Source: Copromyces sp. CBS 386.78
Taxonomy: Eukaryota > Ascomycota > Sordariomycetes > Sordariales > Sordariaceae
Direction of reading: 5' to 3'
Length of the DNA stretch: 64,000 nt
NCBI GenBank assembly: GCA_030685235.1
Contig: MU839089.1
Coordinates: 248,001-312,000, forward strand
A program made the translations under genes and the position numbers. Positions 55,414-62,657 of the stretch are shown here, piece by piece; within the stretch, counting starts at the first letter, position 1; every line of letters starts with the position of its first letter. The notes under the pieces were generated by a model. That model was not told the DNA's origin. It saw only the letters and a list, made by a program, of their open reading frames with translations, and searched no databases.

Positions 55414-55944
55414 TCATTCTTGGGCAGGGCCTCGGGCAGAGTTGTGACCGCCCTGTATCAGCCTCAAGAGGGCTTGGCCCGCCTCGAGTAATTCCTGTTG
55501 AGGTTCCTGTTGAGGTTGCTGTTGAGCTTCTCCCAGCTGGGGTTGATCATCTTGGGGTTTCTCTTGAGGTTCGCCTTGAGGTTCCTCCTCTCGAGACTCA
55601 TCTTGAGGCTCTTCTTGTTGAGGTTCTTGTTGAGGTACTTCTTCTTGAGGTTGAGCTTCGCCCCCCTGAGTTCCTCCCCCTTGCCGAGTCTGTCGAGTCC
55701 CCTGAGTCCACCAGGGCATGTTTTCCGGCCAAGGATCAGGCCAAGAAGCCTCCCTTCTTTCCTCATGAAACCACGACTCAAATGACACCGGCCTTGTTCT
55801 TCTTATTCTTTGAGACAACGGCTTCTTGCCTTCTTCTTCAACATGGGTAGTTGGGAGGAGTTCAGCTTCGCCTCTTGCCCAGGCCTCGATGTTCTGCCGT
55901 TCTCCATCACTAAGTAACCTCCAATTGCTATTAACATCGAGATA
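55414..55944 (-). CDS. Segment 5 of the reading frame downstream of hda-2: Gln/Glu/Pro-rich tail
   Basis: 176 sense codons in the same frame as the segment before it, following an in-frame TAG (55947-55945) and ending at TGA (55416-55414). It begins YLDVNSNWRLLSDGERQNIEAWARGEAELL, which looks like ordinary protein, then SQRIRRTRPVSFESWF, then a run of short QQEPQQEEP-type repeats. I do not recognise it. There is no credible splice donor or acceptor that would remove the TAG. It may be a readthrough product, part of a decayed gene, or untranslated. An alternative last frame would end DVDFVV but no intron supports that. Confidence 0.45.
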   Translation of the reverse strand, partial: YLDVNSNWRLLSDGERQNIEAWARGEAELLPTTHVEEEGKKPLSQRIRRTRPVSFESWFHEERREASWPDPWPENMPWWTQGTRQTRQGGGTQGGEAQPQEEVPQQEPQQEEPQDESREEEPQGEPQEKPQDDQPQLGEAQQQPQQEPQQELLEAGQALLRLIQGGHNSARGPAQE

Positions 55945-56540
55945 CTAGCCATCGTTGCCGACGACAATGTAACCAGCGTCTTCACCCTCGTCGTCATCTG
56001 CTATATCCTCTTGATGGGCGGATTCTGGAACGGTATGTCCGTGATTATCTGGTTCAACAGCAGACTGTCCCTCACCCAGAGATGAGGGTGGGGTACTTCC
56101 TAGTGGGCCTAGGTCAAATAATCCAGTTAGCCAGCATATGAGATAGGAAGGGGAAGATATCGCATACCGGGCGGTGTTCCAAGCCCTCTGTCTACGGAGA
56201 GTGAAGGAAACGACAGGGTCCTTCGAGGATGGTTGGGCAGGTTTGTGAATTCGTCTTTAGCCTGCTCCTCACCAGGGCTTAGCTTGCCAGTGCTTAGCTC
56301 GCGTGAAAGTTCCTGCCCTTGAGGCTGTTGCAATTGGGCTTCTTCCTCTTGAGGTTCTTCCACTTGAGTCTCTTCCTCCCAAGCTTCCTCTTGATGTTCT
56401 TCCTCTTGAAGCTCTCCCTCTCGAGGTCCTTCCACTGGAGCCCGTTCCGCTTCTTCCCGGGCCACATCTTCCAGCCAAGGAATGTCGGCCGACATACTCC
56501 TTGTTCGACGTAGTTCCCCCTCGGGAGCCTGAGGCGGATC
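55945..56540 (-). CDS. Segment 4 of the reading frame downstream of hda-2, with one intron
   Basis: 178 sense codons between in-frame TAGs at 56543-56541 and 55947-55945. Exonic parts are 56540-56168 and 56108-55948; the 59-bp intron (56167-56109) has a GTATGC donor, a GCTAACTGG branch and a CCTAG acceptor, and keeps the frame (GTPP-GPLGSTPPSS). The first part is Glu/Gln-rich with EEPQEEEA-like repeats (DIPWLEDVAREEAERAP...). The end reads GEDAGYIVVGNDG before the TAG, which could also be a genuine C-terminus. A well-formed intron argues that this DNA is or recently was transcribed and spliced. No family recognised. Confidence 0.5.
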
Positions 56541-57176
56541 CTACTCGCGCTCCGGTGGTCCTTGGTTTTGTTGATGAGGATGGTTCTGGCTCAGGCCTTC
56601 CATCATCTGAACGCAATACTCTTTGACCCTGTTGATGAGCCGGTGCTTCGAATGCTGAGGGAGGCTGGCAAGGTGATAATCTTCTGAGAGGACTCTGTGC
56701 ATCCAGATACCGATCTGGATCGAGCGGTGTAGTTGTTCCGGGGTGAACTCGATTAAAGGAGGTAAAGGCTCTACCACATCCGGCGGGAGTATGAAAAACT
56801 CTGCTGGCATCTGGCTCCGCGACTGATTCTGTTGATGAGGGTGATGCCTGCCTTCCATAAGCTGAACGCAATGCTCTTTGACACTGTTCATGAGCCGGTG
56901 CTTCGAATGCTCAGGGAGGCTGGCAAGGTGATAATCTTCTGAGAGGACTCTGTGCATCCAGGTACTGATCTGGATCGAGCGGTGTAGTTGTTCCGGGGTG
57001 AACACCATTAAACGAGGTAAGGGCTCTACCACATCCGGCGGGCCTATGTATTGCGCTGCCGGCAGCTGGCTCTGCGACTGATTCTGGTGTGACATCGGAT
57101 TCTGGTATGACATTTGTGTCTGCCATGGCATTTGTCCTTGTGACGGCATCTGCCCTTGCGACGGAATCTGCCCTTG
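56541..57176 (-). CDS. Segment 3 of the reading frame downstream of hda-2: tandem 85-residue repeats
   Basis: 211 sense codons between in-frame TAGs at 57179-57177 and 56543-56541. It opens with Q-G-Q-(I/M)-P repeats that continue the pattern seen just before the TAG (…MPWQGQM…GQIP-stop-QGQIPSQGQMP…), so the stop interrupts a repeat rather than ending a protein. Two 85-residue copies of a helical module follow (57065-56811 and 56810-56556). Each has PPDVVEPLP, FTPEQLHRSIQI, WMHRVLSEDYHLASLP and HSKHRL. The copies differ by scattered substitutions and no frameshift, which implies some coding constraint after the duplication. Family unknown. Confidence 0.55.
   Translation of the reverse strand, partial: QGQIPSQGQMPSQGQMPWQTQMSYQNPMSHQNQSQSQLPAAQYIGPPDVVEPLPRLMVFTPEQLHRSIQISTWMHRVLSEDYHLASLPEHSKHRLMNSVKEHCVQLMEGRHHPHQQNQSRSQMPAEFFILPPDVVEPLPPLIEFTPEQLHRSIQIGIWMHRVLSEDYHLASLPQHSKHRLINRVKEYCVQMMEGLSQNHPHQQNQGPPERE
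56556..57065 (-). repeat. 255-bp tandem duplication (two 85-codon units)
   Basis: Unit 1 57065-56811, unit 2 56810-56556. Both start at a (L/M)PA codon triplet and contain HRVLSEDYHLASLP. The matching DNA block around GGCAAGGTGATAAT (plus strand) recurs at 56667 and 56922, exactly 255 bp apart. It is below the ~400-bp length usually needed for RIP. Confidence 0.9.
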
Positions 57177-60100
57177 CTACGGTATTTGTCCTTCGAATCG
57201 CATCTGGCCCTGCCATGGCATTGAATTCTGGAGTGCGAGCGGATTCTCGTGTGGCCTCGTCGGCTTGGGAATCTGGGCCGTGAGCGGATTCTGGTATGGC
57301 ATCGGCCGGGGTGGCATCATCGCCCGGGGAGCCTGGGGTATAAGCGGATTCTGGTGTGGTATCAGACCTGGCGGCGGTATTAGCTGAGGATCCCGGGGTG
57401 CGAGCGGATCCTGGTGTGGCATAAGTCCCGGCGGCGGTATCAGCTGAGGATCCTGGGGTGCGAGCGGATTCTGGTGTGGCATCAGACCTGGCGGCGGTAT
57501 CAGCTGAGGATCCCGGGGTGCGAGCGGATTCTGGTGTGGCATAAGTCCCGGCGGCGGTATCAGCTGAGGATCCCGGGGTATGAGCGGATTCTGGTGTGGC
57601 ATCAGACCTGGCGGCGGTATCAGCTGAGGATCCCGGGGTGCGAGCGGATTCTGGTGTGGCATCAGACCTGGCGGCGGTATCAGCTGAGGATCCTGGGGTG
57701 CGAGCGGATTCTGGTGTGGCATAAGTCCCGGCGGCGGTATCAGCTGGGGATTCCGGGGTGCGATAGGATTCTGATGGGGCATAAGTCCCGGCGGCGGTAT
57801 CAGCTGAGGATTCTGGTGTGGCATCATCGGCCGGGGAATCTGGTATGACATCGGCCGGGGAGGATTCGGCGGTGTGACGGGGTTCTGCTGTGACACCGGA
57901 TTTTGGTCAGGAATCGGATTCTCGGCCGGTGGTGGTGGTAAGAGCTGCTCCGGCGGACTTCTTGGCTGCTGCGCCTCTGCCGGCATCTCTTCCTCCGTAG
58001 GCTCTTCCGGCTCTGATATCGATGGCAACATCTTCTGCCCATCCTCTTGCACGCCCTCGTCCTTCACCTCCTCCTCTTGAGTTTGAGTGACCTCGTCTTC
58101 GGCCACCTCTTCTTCTTTTACAATTGCTTCGTCCCTCTTCTCTGTTTGTAATTCTTTTTCCACCGCCTCTTGCTTCTCCTTGTCCCTCGGCTTTTGCTTT
58201 TCTTTTGCCTCCGCATCCTGGGCCTCCTTTTTCTTCGCCGCTCTCGCCGCTTTCTCATCCTTCTCCCTGGCTTGCTTTTCCCTGTGTGCTTTTTCCCTGT
58301 CGGCTTTTTTCTTTTCTGCTTCTTCCTTGTCTGCTTTTGCCTTCGCATCATGGGCCTCCTTTTTCTTCGCCGCCCTCGCCGCTTTCTCATCCTTCTCCCT
58401 GGCTTCCTTTTCCCTGTGTGCTTTTTCCCTCTCTGCTTTTTTCCTATCTGCTTCTTCCCTGTCCGCCTTTTCCTTATCTGCTTTTTTCTTATCTGCTTTT
58501 TCCTTGTCTGCTTTTTCCCTGTCCGCTTCTTCCTTGTCTGCTTTTTCCCTCGCCTCCTTGGCCTCCCTCTCCTTCACCTCTTGTTGTTCTTGTTCCTTCT
58601 TCGCTCTCTCCTCCTTTTCCTTCTTCGCTTTCTCTTCCCTTTCTTTCTTTGCCTTATCTTCCTTCTCCCTGGCCGCCTTTTCCTCTCTTTCACTCTTTTC
58701 CTGGGCCTTCTTCTTCATCTTCTCTTTCTCTTCCTTCTCCTTCTGCACTTTCTCTTCTCTTTGCTTCTGCGCTTTCTCTTCTGTCTCCTTGGCCAATCTT
58801 TCCTCTCTCTCCCTCTGCTTCTGAGCCTCCTTCTCCCTCCTCGCTTCTTTCTCCCTGGCTTCCTGCTCCGCCTTCTCTTTCGCTTCCTGCTCCTCCTCCT
58901 GCCTCCTTTCTTTTCTCCTCTTTTTCTTGGCTCTGCTGATCTGACTCCTCGTTAACTTCTGCTGCCGTTCTTCGGTTTTGTTAGCCTTGTCGTCTTCTTC
59001 CGAGTCCGTCTCATTCTTTGCATGTTCGTCTTCATCCTTCTTGTCTTGTTCATCCTCGACATGTTCAATCTGTTCAACCTCCGTATCCTCCAGCTCAGCC
59101 TCGATATCTTCAATCTGCTCAGCCCCGGGGTCCTCCAGCGCATCCTCGACATTGTCACTCTGCTCGACGAGCTCTGGATCCTTTCGCGCATCCCCCCAGG
59201 TCGTCTTCTTCTTTTTCTTTTTCGACCTCTTTTTCGACCTTTTCTTCTGACCCTTCAGTCTCTCACCGTCCTCTTCGTCCTTCTCAGCCTTTCCCTCCTG
59301 CGACGTCACATCCACCCCCTTCTTTTGTACATCTGCCACCTCCTGCGCCGTCACTTCCACTCCCCTGATTTGGAAATCTGCCACGTCCTGTGCAGTCACA
59401 TTAAACCCCCCTTCTTGAGCCTCTCTCAGCGTACCCTCGAAATCGCTTCTCATTTTATCAAGATTCCTTTCCTTATCCACTTGGCCCTGCAACCATTCCG
59501 CTATTTTCTCGGAATTCATCTCTATAACGAATGTAACACCACCATGTATCCCTGTGATCGTCTTGATCCTTAAACTGCCACCAAGTCTCTCAACCCAAGT
59601 CTTGCGCTGGTCAATAAACTGCTGCTGGGTAAGCGCTACCATTATATTGTCGTCCTTCGACTTCAAAAACCTTTGCCTCTCCTCGGAGAAGTGTACCCCC
59701 CTCTTTTCCAGCATCGCCCCCAAAGCTCTAAACCTTCGTTTCATATTGTCGAAACCAGTATCGAGGTACACCGCTCCCATGAGCCATTTATTGAGTATCT
59801 TGGTCTCCACGTCTACAGGAAAGCTAGTCCGCTCACGTGTCGTGGCAATTCCATCAATGTACTGCAAAAATCGCTGCTGCTTCGCAACCCATGACTGATT
59901 CACTTCACCGTCCTGCTCTTCCGCTAGATAGGCCTGTTTGTTCGGTAGCTTATTTTCCGTGTTCACAAAAACACGTTCAGGCGGGCCGCTTTCAGCTGCC
60001 GCAGCCTGCGCGGCTTCTATAGCTTCCCGAATCTTTTCCAGGTCCATACCAGCTCTTCCAGGCGGGCTCTCAAGTGCCGCAACCTGGGAAGCTTCCTGAT

Positions 60101-61157
60101 TCCTTTTCTGTGCTTCCTGTAGCATCTGTATGTCCTGGTGGTTCTTTGCTAAGGTTGCCATGTTTTTCCAAAAGTCCAGAAGTGCCTGCACCTCCTTGGA
60201 CTCCTCTGCTGTCTTGGGGCCGGTCTTATTCGGAATCCGACCGATTTTTACAACAGTCCGAAGGCGTTTAAAGCTGTCGTGAAATCCGGTCAGTTGTTCT
60301 GTGGTCAACTTCCCTTGCTCTTTGAATACACGCAATTCTCCGAGGGCAGCGGCTATTACACGGTCGGGGTTCTGCTCAAAGTCTTTGGGGTCTACTCTTT
60401 CCCAAAACGAGACACGCGTCATCGGGTCTGCTGGAAGGCACGCTGTGTGTGCATCCCGCAATTCTTGCAGCCTTTTGTCGAGCTGCTGGTTCCTTGCTGC
60501 GGCTATGATATTTGAATACCCCCGTGCAAGTGCTTCCACGCATTGACGCTCTTTCGTCGTCATCGGAGCGGCCTCGACCTTTTCTTCAATCCGGCCAGTG
60601 TTCAAAACACACCGAAGGTGTATCAACTTGACGAGATCTTCGGCACCTTCTTCCGCGGTAATCAACCCCAAGTCCAGCTTTTCCTTTACTGCGTCGACGG
60701 CAACGTTTAGTGCTCGGTTGGGATGGTGTTTAAGGTCATCGACGTCCACTGTTTCCCACCATGGGACACGCAGATGCGGGGGTATTGTCGAGCCTTGGGG
60801 GGGAGCGCGAGGGGGGCGTTGTGGGCCAATCCAGGGTACTGCTGAAGCGTTGATCGGGTTGGGGGGGATCTGTGTGGCTTCTTGATGTGTAGGCGGATCA
60901 TGGGGAAACTCATTGGGGGGGTCAAGGTCGGAATCAAGGTAGGCATCAGAGTCGGAATCAGTGTAGGCGCCATAGTCGGAACCAGAATCGGAACCTGAGT
61001 CGAAATCCGATTCGGGTAAAGGGGTGGTGGTGGAGATGGATGACAAAGGGTAAAAGGGAATCGACTGTCTGTCATTATTGTTGGGCCAAGGAGGTAACGG
61101 AGGCACTTCAGCCTCGGGGCGCGAAACATGGGCGATTGCACCGCCTCGTAAATTGCA
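57177..61157 (-). CDS. Segment 2: 1,326-codon open frame directly downstream of and in frame with hda-2
   Basis: The frame starts at the codon after the hda-2 TAG and stays open to TAG 57179-57177. The first ATG is 198 codons in, at 60563; if this is a separate gene its start is there or in an unseen exon. Order of parts: a Ser/Asp-rich acidic stretch (SDSGSDYGAYTDSDSD); two diverged ~105-residue copies of a helical module (60767-60447 and 60410-60102: W-E-x-V-D, LR-x-V, GRI, N-x-Q, LQE); a globular-looking region (~59,950-59,480, NKWLMGAVYLDTGFDNMKRRF); a KKRSKKKKKK patch; ~330 residues of Lys/Glu/Arg-rich coiled coil; eight 20-residue QLIPPPGLMPHQNPLAPRDP-type repeats; and QNP/QGQ repeats. 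I recognise no family. Codons end in A/T more often than in hda-2. Confidence 0.65.
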   Translation of the reverse strand, partial: CNLRGGAIAHVSRPEAEVPPLPPWPNNNDRQSIPFYPLSSISTTTPLPESDFDSGSDSGSDYGAYTDSDSDAYLDSDLDPPNEFPHDPPTHQEATQIPPNPINASAVPWIGPQRPPRAPPQGSTIPPHLRVPWWETVDVDDLKHHPNRALNVAVDAVKEKLDLGLITAEEGAEDLVKLIHLRCVLNTGRIEEKVEAAPMTTKERQCVEALARGYSNIIAAARNQQLDKRLQELRDAHTACLPADPMTRVSFWERVDPKDFEQNPDRVIAAALGELRVFKEQGKLTTEQLTGFHDSFKRLRTVVKIGRIPNKTGPKTAEESKEVQALLDFWKNMATLAKNHQDIQMLQEAQKRNQEASQVAALESPPGRAGMDLEKIREAIEAAQAAAAESGPPERVFVNTENKLPNKQAYLAEEQDGEVNQSWVAKQQRFLQYIDGIATTRERTSFPVDVETKILNKWLMGAVYLDTGFDNMKRRFRALGAMLEKRGVHFSEERQRFLKSKDDNIMVALTQQQFIDQRKTWVERLGGSLRIKTITGIHGGVTFVIEMNSEKIAEWLQGQVDKERNLDKMRSDFEGTLREAQEGGFNVTAQDVADFQIRGVEVTAQEVADVQKKGVDVTSQEGKAEKDEEDGERLKGQKKRSKKRSKKKKKKTTWGDARKDPELVEQSDNVEDALEDPGAEQIEDIEAELEDTEVEQIEHVEDEQDKKDEDEHAKNETDSEEDDKANKTEERQQKLTRSQISRAKKKRRKERRQEEEQEAKEKAEQEAREKEARREKEAQKQREREERLAKETEEKAQKQREEKVQKEKEEKEKMKKKAQEKSEREEKAAREKEDKAKKEREEKAKKEKEERAKKEQEQQEVKEREAKEAREKADKEEADREKADKEKADKKKADKEKADREEADRKKAEREKAHREKEAREKDEKAARAAKKKEAHDAKAKADKEEAEKKKADREKAHREKQAREKDEKAARAAKKKEAQDAEAKEKQKPRDKEKQEAVEKELQTEKRDEAIVKEEEVAEDEVTQTQEEEVKDEGVQEDGQKMLPSISEPEEPTEEEMPAEAQQPRSPPEQLLPPPPAENPIPDQNPVSQQNPVTPPNPPRPMSYQIPRPMMPHQNPQLIPPPGLMPHQNPIAPRNPQLIPPPGLMPHQNPLAPQDPQLIPPPGLMPHQNPLAPRDPQLIPPPGLMPHQNPLIPRDPQLIPPPGLMPHQNPLAPRDPQLIPPPGLMPHQNPLAPQDPQLIPPPGLMPHQDPLAPRDPQLIPPPGLIPHQNPLIPQAPRAMMPPRPMPYQNPLTAQIPKPTRPHENPLALQNSMPWQGQMRFEGQIP
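57327..57806 (-). repeat. Eight tandem 60-bp repeats coding 20-residue Pro-rich units
   Basis: Eight exact-length copies, each encoding a QLIPPPGL-start unit ending with a PRDP, PQDP, PRNP or PQAP variant. The frame is preserved in all units. Further shorter HQNP/YQNP repeats flank both sides. Differences between units are few, so the array is young or homogenised. Confidence 0.93.
58100..58970 (-). repeat. Lys/Glu/Ala/Asp heptad-like coding repeats, with a ~45-residue internal duplication
   Basis: This part of segment 2 is built from KADKEKADREEADRKKAE-type units. A longer block (REKAHREK-x-AREKDEKAARAAKKKEA) occurs twice, around 58385 and 58255 on the plus coordinate. It predicts a long single helix or coiled coil. 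Confidence 0.8.
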
Positions 61158-62657
61158 CTAAAACTCGCCGCTGATACCCAAGCCTTCCTCCCTGTCCCGT
61201 CTGAGGCCTTCATCCCGTTCCTCGCTTTCCTCTTTGAGGCGGTCCTCGACATCGTCCCGGATGCCAGCCAGGTCTGGCGGAATCACCTGCTGCTGCACGC
61301 TGGGGGCGGCGTTGACGAAGCGCAACTGCTCGTGCACATGCTGAATGATCTCCTGAAGCCGCTTCTGCGAGTTCCTGTTGACACGCGGATCACCCAGAAT
61401 CTGCTCCAGCGAGGGGAACAGCTCCTCCTGGACGAAATGCTTCCGCCAGGGAGTGTGGTCGGGGATAATCTTGTTGATCTTTTCGTCAATGTCGATGGCG
61501 ACCGATGTCTCATAGGCCCATGCGCGGGCCACATTGCGGGGAGTGTAGCCACCGCCGCCAAACATGATCATGGGAATGCCAAAGGTTTTGCAAAACTTTG
61601 CGCAGGCGCCGTGGCCCTGGACTTGCAGGTTGAACCTACCCAGGCGGTCGCCGGCGAGCGAGTCGGCGCCACACTGAAGGGCGATGACCGAAGGGCGGAA
61701 CTTTTCGTTGATCTTGCCGATGATGGACTGGAAGAGGTGGCCATACTGCTCGTCGGTGATGCCGTCGTTGAGGGGTACATTGATGGCGTGGTGAGCACCC
61801 GGATTGTGCTCCGACTTGGGACCGTTGTCGTCGAGACCGCCGGTGCCAGGGAAGAAGACGTCGGGGGCGAACTTGTGGAAGGAACACGTCATGACACGGT
61901 CTGTGCTGTAGAAAGCCTCCTCGACGCCGTCACCGTGATGGACGTCGATGTCGATATAGAGCACTCGTGGATAGCAGCGCAGGAGCTGGAGAATGGCAAG
62001 GACAATGTCGTTGATGTAGCAGAAGCCCGAGGCCTCGGACTTTTTGGCATGGTGAAGACCGCCGCCCCAGGCAATGGCAATGTCGGACTGCTTGTTGCAG
62101 ATCTTGCGGGCGGCGTCCAGAGAGCTGCCGGCAGACATGGAACAGTAGTCGTACAGGCCGTGGAAGAGGGGACAGTCGGAGCCGCCGAGGTTGAACTTGA
62201 CTTCCTTGTCGGGGTTGTCGATATCCCGGGGCATCTCCTCGGGTGGTGCCATGTGCAGGTAGTCGAGATAGTCGCTGGTATGGAACGAGTTGAGCTCTTG
62301 GTACGTTGCTATCCTGGTGTTGTAGTTGTCCATGGCGAAGTTCATGCCGTAGGCGGTGACCAGACTCTTGGTGAGAGTCAGACGGAAGGGCTTCATGGGA
62401 TGTGTCAGGCCGAAGTGGTGAGGCTCCATGTCGGGGTTGAAGTGGTACGAGACCGTGTATCCCTTGGGACGGGTGATGTTGTATTCGTGGGCCATGCGCT
62501 TCATGTGGGCGTAGTACTCTGCATTTTCGCGGTCGCTGGCCTTGTCCATGGGGATCGGGGCCTTGTAGACGTCCACGGTGGGCTCATCGACGTCGACGTC
62601 GTGGGGGAGGTAGTTTGGTTTTGGCGGCCTCCATTGTAGCGACTGTAGGATGTCCAT
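61158..62657 (-). CDS. hda-2: Class I histone deacetylase, Hos2 type (Set3-complex catalytic subunit)
   Basis: It removes acetyl groups from histone tails in the nucleus; Hos2 works in the Set3 complex. One exon, 499 residues from ATG 62657 (the frame runs upstream to a TTG only). All catalytic elements are present: the His-His pair 192-193 (GGGLHHAKK), zinc ligands Asp228 and His230 (DIDVHHGDG) and Asp322 (CGADSLAGD), and the transition-state Tyr361 (GGGGYTPRN). The early motif SYHFNPDMEPHHFGLTHPMKPFRL matches Hos2 more than Rpd3. The C-terminus is helical and acidic (EERDEGLRRDREEGLGISGEF). The stop is TAG and the same frame continues without another stop for 1,326 codons. The opposite-strand 435-codon frame is a shadow. 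Confidence 0.95.
   Translation of the reverse strand: MDILQSLQWRPPKPNYLPHDVDVDEPTVDVYKAPIPMDKASDRENAEYYAHMKRMAHEYNITRPKGYTVSYHFNPDMEPHHFGLTHPMKPFRLTLTKSLVTAYGMNFAMDNYNTRIATYQELNSFHTSDYLDYLHMAPPEEMPRDIDNPDKEVKFNLGGSDCPLFHGLYDYCSMSAGSSLDAARKICNKQSDIAIAWGGGLHHAKKSEASGFCYINDIVLAILQLLRCYPRVLYIDIDVHHGDGVEEAFYSTDRVMTCSFHKFAPDVFFPGTGGLDDNGPKSEHNPGAHHAINVPLNDGITDEQYGHLFQSIIGKINEKFRPSVIALQCGADSLAGDRLGRFNLQVQGHGACAKFCKTFGIPMIMFGGGGYTPRNVARAWAYETSVAIDIDEKINKIIPDHTPWRKHFVQEELFPSLEQILGDPRVNRNSQKRLQEIIQHVHEQLRFVNAAPSVQQQVIPPDLAGIRDDVEDRLKEESEERDEGLRRDREEGLGISGEF

Follow-up and report, generated by a model that had tools for sequence, protein, structure and literature searches.

The hda-2 gene and the frame downstream of it

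The stretch of DNA analysed here (the window, 64,000 nucleotides) lies wholly within contig C11 of Copromyces sp. CBS 386.78 (Sordariaceae), a contig of 608,095 bases in a 49.8-Mb genome, and its minus strand holds hda-2 together with a long downstream frame at positions 55414..62657. The hda-2 gene (61158..62657, minus strand) is a single exon that encodes a Hos2-type histone deacetylase (HDAC) of 499 aa (PF00850, E 5.4e-82), and its product is 96% identical to a Neurospora tetraspora HDAC, also of 499 aa. Because the N. tetraspora protein terminates at the identical residue, the TAG at 61158..61160 (minus strand; UAG 1) is, by this comparison, the genuine terminus of hda-2. It is also a possible site of stop-loss editing, and hda-2 displays one feature of that class, a canonical UAG at a conserved protein end.

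Beyond UAG 1 the same frame runs on, as the initial annotation had stated, for about 1,890 codons with zero TAA or TGA inside and with one intron of 59 bp, and the positions it gave are exact: TAG at 61160-61158, 57179-57177, 56543-56541 and 55947-55945, and TGA at 55416-55414. This tail begins with an open segment of 1,326 codons (57180..61157, minus strand), containing an acidic S/D run, a duplicated domain, a K/E-rich stretch and a P/Q repeat array, which leads to UAG 2 (57177..57179, minus strand). There follow 211 codons to UAG 3 (56541..56543, minus strand), the intron (56167-56109, minus strand; GTATGC...CTAAC...CTAG), which is matched by an intron-like stretch at a comparable place in the paralogue described below, UAG 4 (55945..55947, minus strand) and a last open segment of 176 codons that is closed by the TGA (55414..55944, minus strand). 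With the intron removed, the stops internal to the tail, after that of the HDAC, are indeed TAG in all three cases; in the other two forward frames across the tail 20 of 138 stops are TAG (0.145), and the chance of obtaining three out of three is about 0.003. For UAG 1 to UAG 3 no simple intron was found that would excise them in frame; a single alternative intron of 258 nt could excise UAG 4, entering a frame that soon stops.

Coding content of the tail and its paralogue

The tail most likely codes for protein and belongs to a Sordariaceae gene that evolves fast. The 1,326-codon run exceeds chance: between 60563 and 59301 its own frame (frame 0) has no stops, compared with 28 in frame 1 and 19 in frame 2. 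The duplicated domain is present as copy 1 (60770-60480, minus strand) and copy 2 (60416-60126, minus strand), whose local alignment scores 121, the best of 5,000 shuffles reaching 54; the first 69 residues of copy 1 lie 5' of the first in-frame ATG (60563), and this part by itself scores 88 as against 47 for the best shuffle. Within the 60-bp P/Q-rich tandem array, read in frame 0 (57303..57824, minus strand), the non-synonymous fraction is 0.60 (expected 0.73) in frame 0, whereas the two remaining frames give 0.79 (0.74) and 0.69 (0.69), a synonymous excess being found in frame 0 only. UAG 2 does sit, as first noted, within a Q-G-Q-x-P repeat, in a slot that other units fill with TGG, TTC, TCG, TCA and TGG.

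UAG 2 is followed by a second domain in two 76-codon copies (57083-56856 and 56828-56601, minus strand) that differ at 22 of 228 nt, 19.2 of the differences being non-synonymous and 2.8 synonymous; between these copies there is no synonymous excess and no sign of purifying selection. Codon bias of the tail is weak, the K/E-rich stretch excepted, and in codon usage frame 1 outscores frame 0 in 56540-56168 and 55944-55417, both of which come after the TAG at 56543. Past this TAG the case for the frame proposed in the initial annotation is therefore weaker than was implied, its support there coming from the lack of other stops and from the paralogue. A second frame is also open across 56269-57906 (minus strand), apart from one TGA (56913), and over part of this stretch it beats frame 0 in codon usage. 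No homologues of the tail were found among 7,991 scored database candidates of about 730-2,320 aa, Pfam returned nothing significant for it (best E 0.077), and in searches of the genome neither the first 619 aa of the tail nor the 211 aa that follow UAG 2 matched anything but themselves.

One sequence in the genome is related to the last segment of the tail; it lies at C11:118453-118683, some 185 kb away, and is 69% identical. Each aligned copy contains one TAG, at the same codon (UAG 4 in the window, G000:C11:118569 in the paralogue) and with similarity on both sides; in the window the aligned block across UAG 4 spans 55837..56025 (minus strand). In stretches aligned by hand, with gaps of three bases, there are seven non-synonymous and seven synonymous differences after UAG 4 (P 0.017 in frame 0) and nine and five, respectively, before it (P 0.17). 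Since another frame gives P 0.002 after UAG 4, these substitutions do not set frame 0 apart.

Neighbouring genes and predicted hairpin loops

The minus strand of C11:72000-123400 carries a cluster of genes with in-frame TAG. Five of these, when read as one frame through TAG (the frames being cut at TAA and TGA by construction), contain a small unnamed domain twice, and in five out of five a single TAG lies between the copies; four of the five align to the first at only 24-29% identity. A search with four of the two-domain genes returned ten proteins, eight of which are from Copromyces, five Neurospora, Sordaria brevicollis and Pseudoneurospora. At the TAG of the gene at C11:80933, where the comparison across species rests on protein models, none of the ten reads through: six are without the domain that precedes the TAG, one keeps this domain and skips the TAG, the Pseudoneurospora model terminates exactly at the TAG, and two are downstream pieces. 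The deposited Copromyces model deletes a domain copy by way of a 138-nt pseudo-intron with the donor GTGCTC and with the TAG itself as 3' splice site. Pfam gave nothing significant for the neighbouring genes, and the predicted structure of one neighbouring protein (mean pLDDT 42) comprises a pair of small, strand-rich units that each include a helix, with no fold match at E 0.001.

An apparent placement of UAG 4 on a conserved Trp of the two-domain profile was discarded, the first profile having included the window and its paralogue; rebuilt without them, it failed. The independent profile (of the 'WY' genes) misses both the window (E 280) and the paralogue (E 3) when Trp is set at the TAG, although Trp is the best-scoring of the 20 residues at that position, and a profile-profile comparison with X at the TAG gave P 0.0046 with a probability of only 3%. 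Because of these two results, the link of the window to the two-domain genes, with UAG 4 at their conserved Trp, is suggestive only.

Merged frames of at least 400 codons numbered 6 for TAA, 13 for TAG and 23 for TGA in C11:1-200000 and 2, 3 and 15, respectively, in the window, and there is no general excess of TAG-interrupted merged frames in either. A scan for frames interrupted by a single stop, covering C11:1-200000, the window and a short flank, gave TAG 9, TGA 3 and TAA 2 with at least 160 codons on each side and TAG 25, TGA 35 and TAA 16 at 100 codons, several of these being by eye mirror or alternative frames and not genes. Two further frames were observed on this contig. One, of 836 codons at C11:123363-120856 (minus strand), occurs just once in the genome, has an ATG close to its beginning and carries a single in-frame TAG, for which a strong hairpin is predicted; the other, at C11:114-116 kb (plus strand), is long and of low complexity, and the assembly has a run of N there.

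The probability that the A of a TAG lies in a hairpin loop was computed with flanks of 15, 25 and 40 nt, for which values are given in this order. For 14 in-frame TAGs, the four in the window and ten others on C11 (including 112734 and 119297, which belong to less certain genes), the means are 0.94/0.79/0.69, whereas 1,200 controls sampled from 4,787 other TAGs give 0.52/0.35/0.22 (P at most 5e-5 at each flank); an earlier control of 48 out-of-frame TAGs of the same genes gave 0.48/0.32/0.27. The ten C11 sites alone reach 0.93/0.90/0.82 and supply most of the pooled signal, and the four window sites alone give 0.97 (P 0.0044), 0.52 (P 0.17) and 0.36 (P 0.19). UAG 2 is high at every flank (0.97/0.99/0.98), with a local energy of only -3.1 kcal/mol; UAG 1 has 0.94/0.84/0.45 and a weak local energy of -1.8 kcal/mol; UAG 3 loses its predicted loop with longer flanks (0.99/0.24/0.00); and UAG 4 has 0.96/0.01/0.00 in the window and 0.95/0.97/0.97 in the paralogue. 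From the window by itself, these models lend mixed support to editing.

Interpretation of the in-frame UAG codons

We consider it probable that the tail is part of a gene of the type whose UAG codons A-to-I editing converts to UGG (tryptophan), a reading favoured by the TAG-only stops, the conserved UAG 4, the neighbouring genes and the pooled hairpin predictions. Fungal A-to-I editing favours an A that follows U and adenosines in hairpin loops (PMC11156358, PMC9600606), and the tail shares with premature-stop-correction genes in-frame stops that are UAG only, three out of three. The A of each UAG, lying in a hairpin loop, would be deaminated to inosine and the codon read as UGG, the likeliest agent being the Tad2-Tad3-Ame1 machinery, at work in sexual development; translation would halt at UAG in hyphae, and longer forms would be made in fruiting bodies. 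UAG 1 would stay the ordinary stop of hda-2 or, were it edited too, would give rise to an HDAC-tail fusion. We infer the editing itself, its stage, its enzyme and this fusion. The nearby two-domain genes seem to undergo UAG-to-Trp editing likewise. Recoding or readthrough of UAG, one of the options raised in the initial annotation, fits best, in a form that it did not name, mRNA editing to UGG. Against editing count the report that individual sites are rarely common to Sordaria and Fusarium (PMC5381528), the mixed hairpin signal of the window's own four TAGs, the lack of any general excess of TAG-interrupted frames, the second domain with its missing purifying signal, the preference of codon usage for frame 1 in two late pieces, the alternative intron at UAG 4, and the fact that the search found no database homologue by which conservation of the tail across species could be judged.

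No in-frame ATG is present between the HDAC stop and 60563, and because coding sequence precedes any in-frame ATG, the tail may come, where UAG 1 is edited as well, as an HDAC-tail fusion; it is possible that the HDAC itself bears the tail, despite its conserved stop, and access from hda-2 is plausible from the arrangement of the DNA. The 123 codons preceding domain copy 1 are open (chance 0.02 by shuffling), a fact that says little since a second frame is open there too. A more specific proposal, that hda-2 is switched in development, with UAG 1 edited in fruiting bodies and then up to three more UAGs, turning the 499-residue HDAC into a series of tailed forms, the longest with about 2,390 residues, we put forward tentatively and regard as rather doubtful.

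The idea that a separate gene abuts hda-2, with its own start, and either ends at the TAG at 57177 or edits its UAGs, so that hda-2 is never extended, has a chance that we place only a little short of even. It agrees with the conserved HDAC terminus and with the apparent ATG of the paralogous gene, and a chance sharing of the hda-2 frame would be expected one time in three. A start is harder to place, with domain copy 1 beginning ahead of the first in-frame ATG and scant space for a 3' UTR and a promoter. A scan that recovers the introns of the tail gene and its paralogue found nowhere in 62657-60294 a canonical branch point paired with an acceptor; allowing any GT and any YAG yields 153 two-exon models, but the best donor among them scores 1.5, as against 2.5, 2.5 and 3.5 for the three introns of the tail gene and paralogue. 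Near-cognate starts with a purine at -3 are present, for example GTG 61106, and a non-AUG start of the tail is the main alternative to access from hda-2. The abutting gene suggested in the initial annotation is possible as regards the start of the tail and is opposed by the domain 5' of the ATG and the want of a good intron or start; such a start is also compatible with editing of the inner UAGs.

Decay of a former gene that gathered TGG- or CAG-to-TAG changes, some of them RIP-type, is unlikely. A single G-to-A change does turn TGG into TAG, the second domain after UAG 2 has no purifying signal and codon bias is weak outside the K/E-rich stretch; yet across some 1,890 codons frame 0 has accumulated no TAA, TGA or frameshift, UAG 4 is kept in a paralogue at 69% identity, and the neighbouring two-domain genes each retain one inter-domain TAG, which for one of these genes models from several species avoid. 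This explanation, also listed at the outset, is disfavoured on these grounds, the conserved TAG of the paralogue, the TAG-only stops and the similar neighbouring genes. Ribosomal readthrough of UAG with no RNA editing is improbable, to judge by the codons after the TAGs and by the hairpin predictions: the codon after UAG 2 is CAA, which fits UAG-CAR-YYA in part, but the ten C11 TAGs are followed by GAA, GAT or GAC in six cases and by CAA in none, and their position in predicted hairpin loops is the preference of editing. Genome-wide reassignment of UAG would account for the in-frame TAGs alone and is scarcely credible, given that hda-2 itself ends with TAG at a conserved terminus.

Among the papers searched, none joined stop-loss, histone deacetylase, A-to-I and perithecia, none matched for Copromyces CBS 386.78, and none came up under the presumed locus number NCU02796. 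The closest known systems resemble the edited reading in part. Premature-stop-correction (PUK1-like) genes of Fusarium and Neurospora have in-frame UAG, a hairpin-loop preference and, in automated gene models, pseudo-introns, and occur in Sordariomycetes (PMC4817773, PMC11156358), the pseudo-intron artefact being described for 69 edited Fusarium genes (Liu et al. 2016, PMC4817773); the present case differs in that three UAGs are scattered along a single orphan frame of great length, that paralogues have a UAG in common, that genes close by carry theirs between two domains, and that editing is predicted from sequence. Stop-loss editing of canonical UAG, known for 323 genes in F. graminearum, likewise involves a canonical UAG beyond which the frame stays open (PMC4817773), whereas here the extension, predicted from DNA, contains domains, could reach about 1,890 codons and follows a histone deacetylase. 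The OLD-ZAO module of N. crassa also has a UAG corrected by A-to-I editing with a hairpin-loop preference, but differs in its antiviral transcription-factor targets (PMC12754623).

Restorative UAG editing is known gene by gene; here a set of strongly diverged neighbours each keep an inter-domain UAG. The two-domain proteins are probably mis-described in databases, because the models of the C11:80933 gene, in several genera, avoid the UAG site, that of Copromyces by means of a pseudo-intron. Were the HDAC stop edited as well, fruiting bodies alone would possess a chromatin enzyme with a giant tail. For stop-loss editing no function in sexual reproduction has been reported (PMC11156358), and the HDAC-tail fusion, if true, would offer a case open to direct test.
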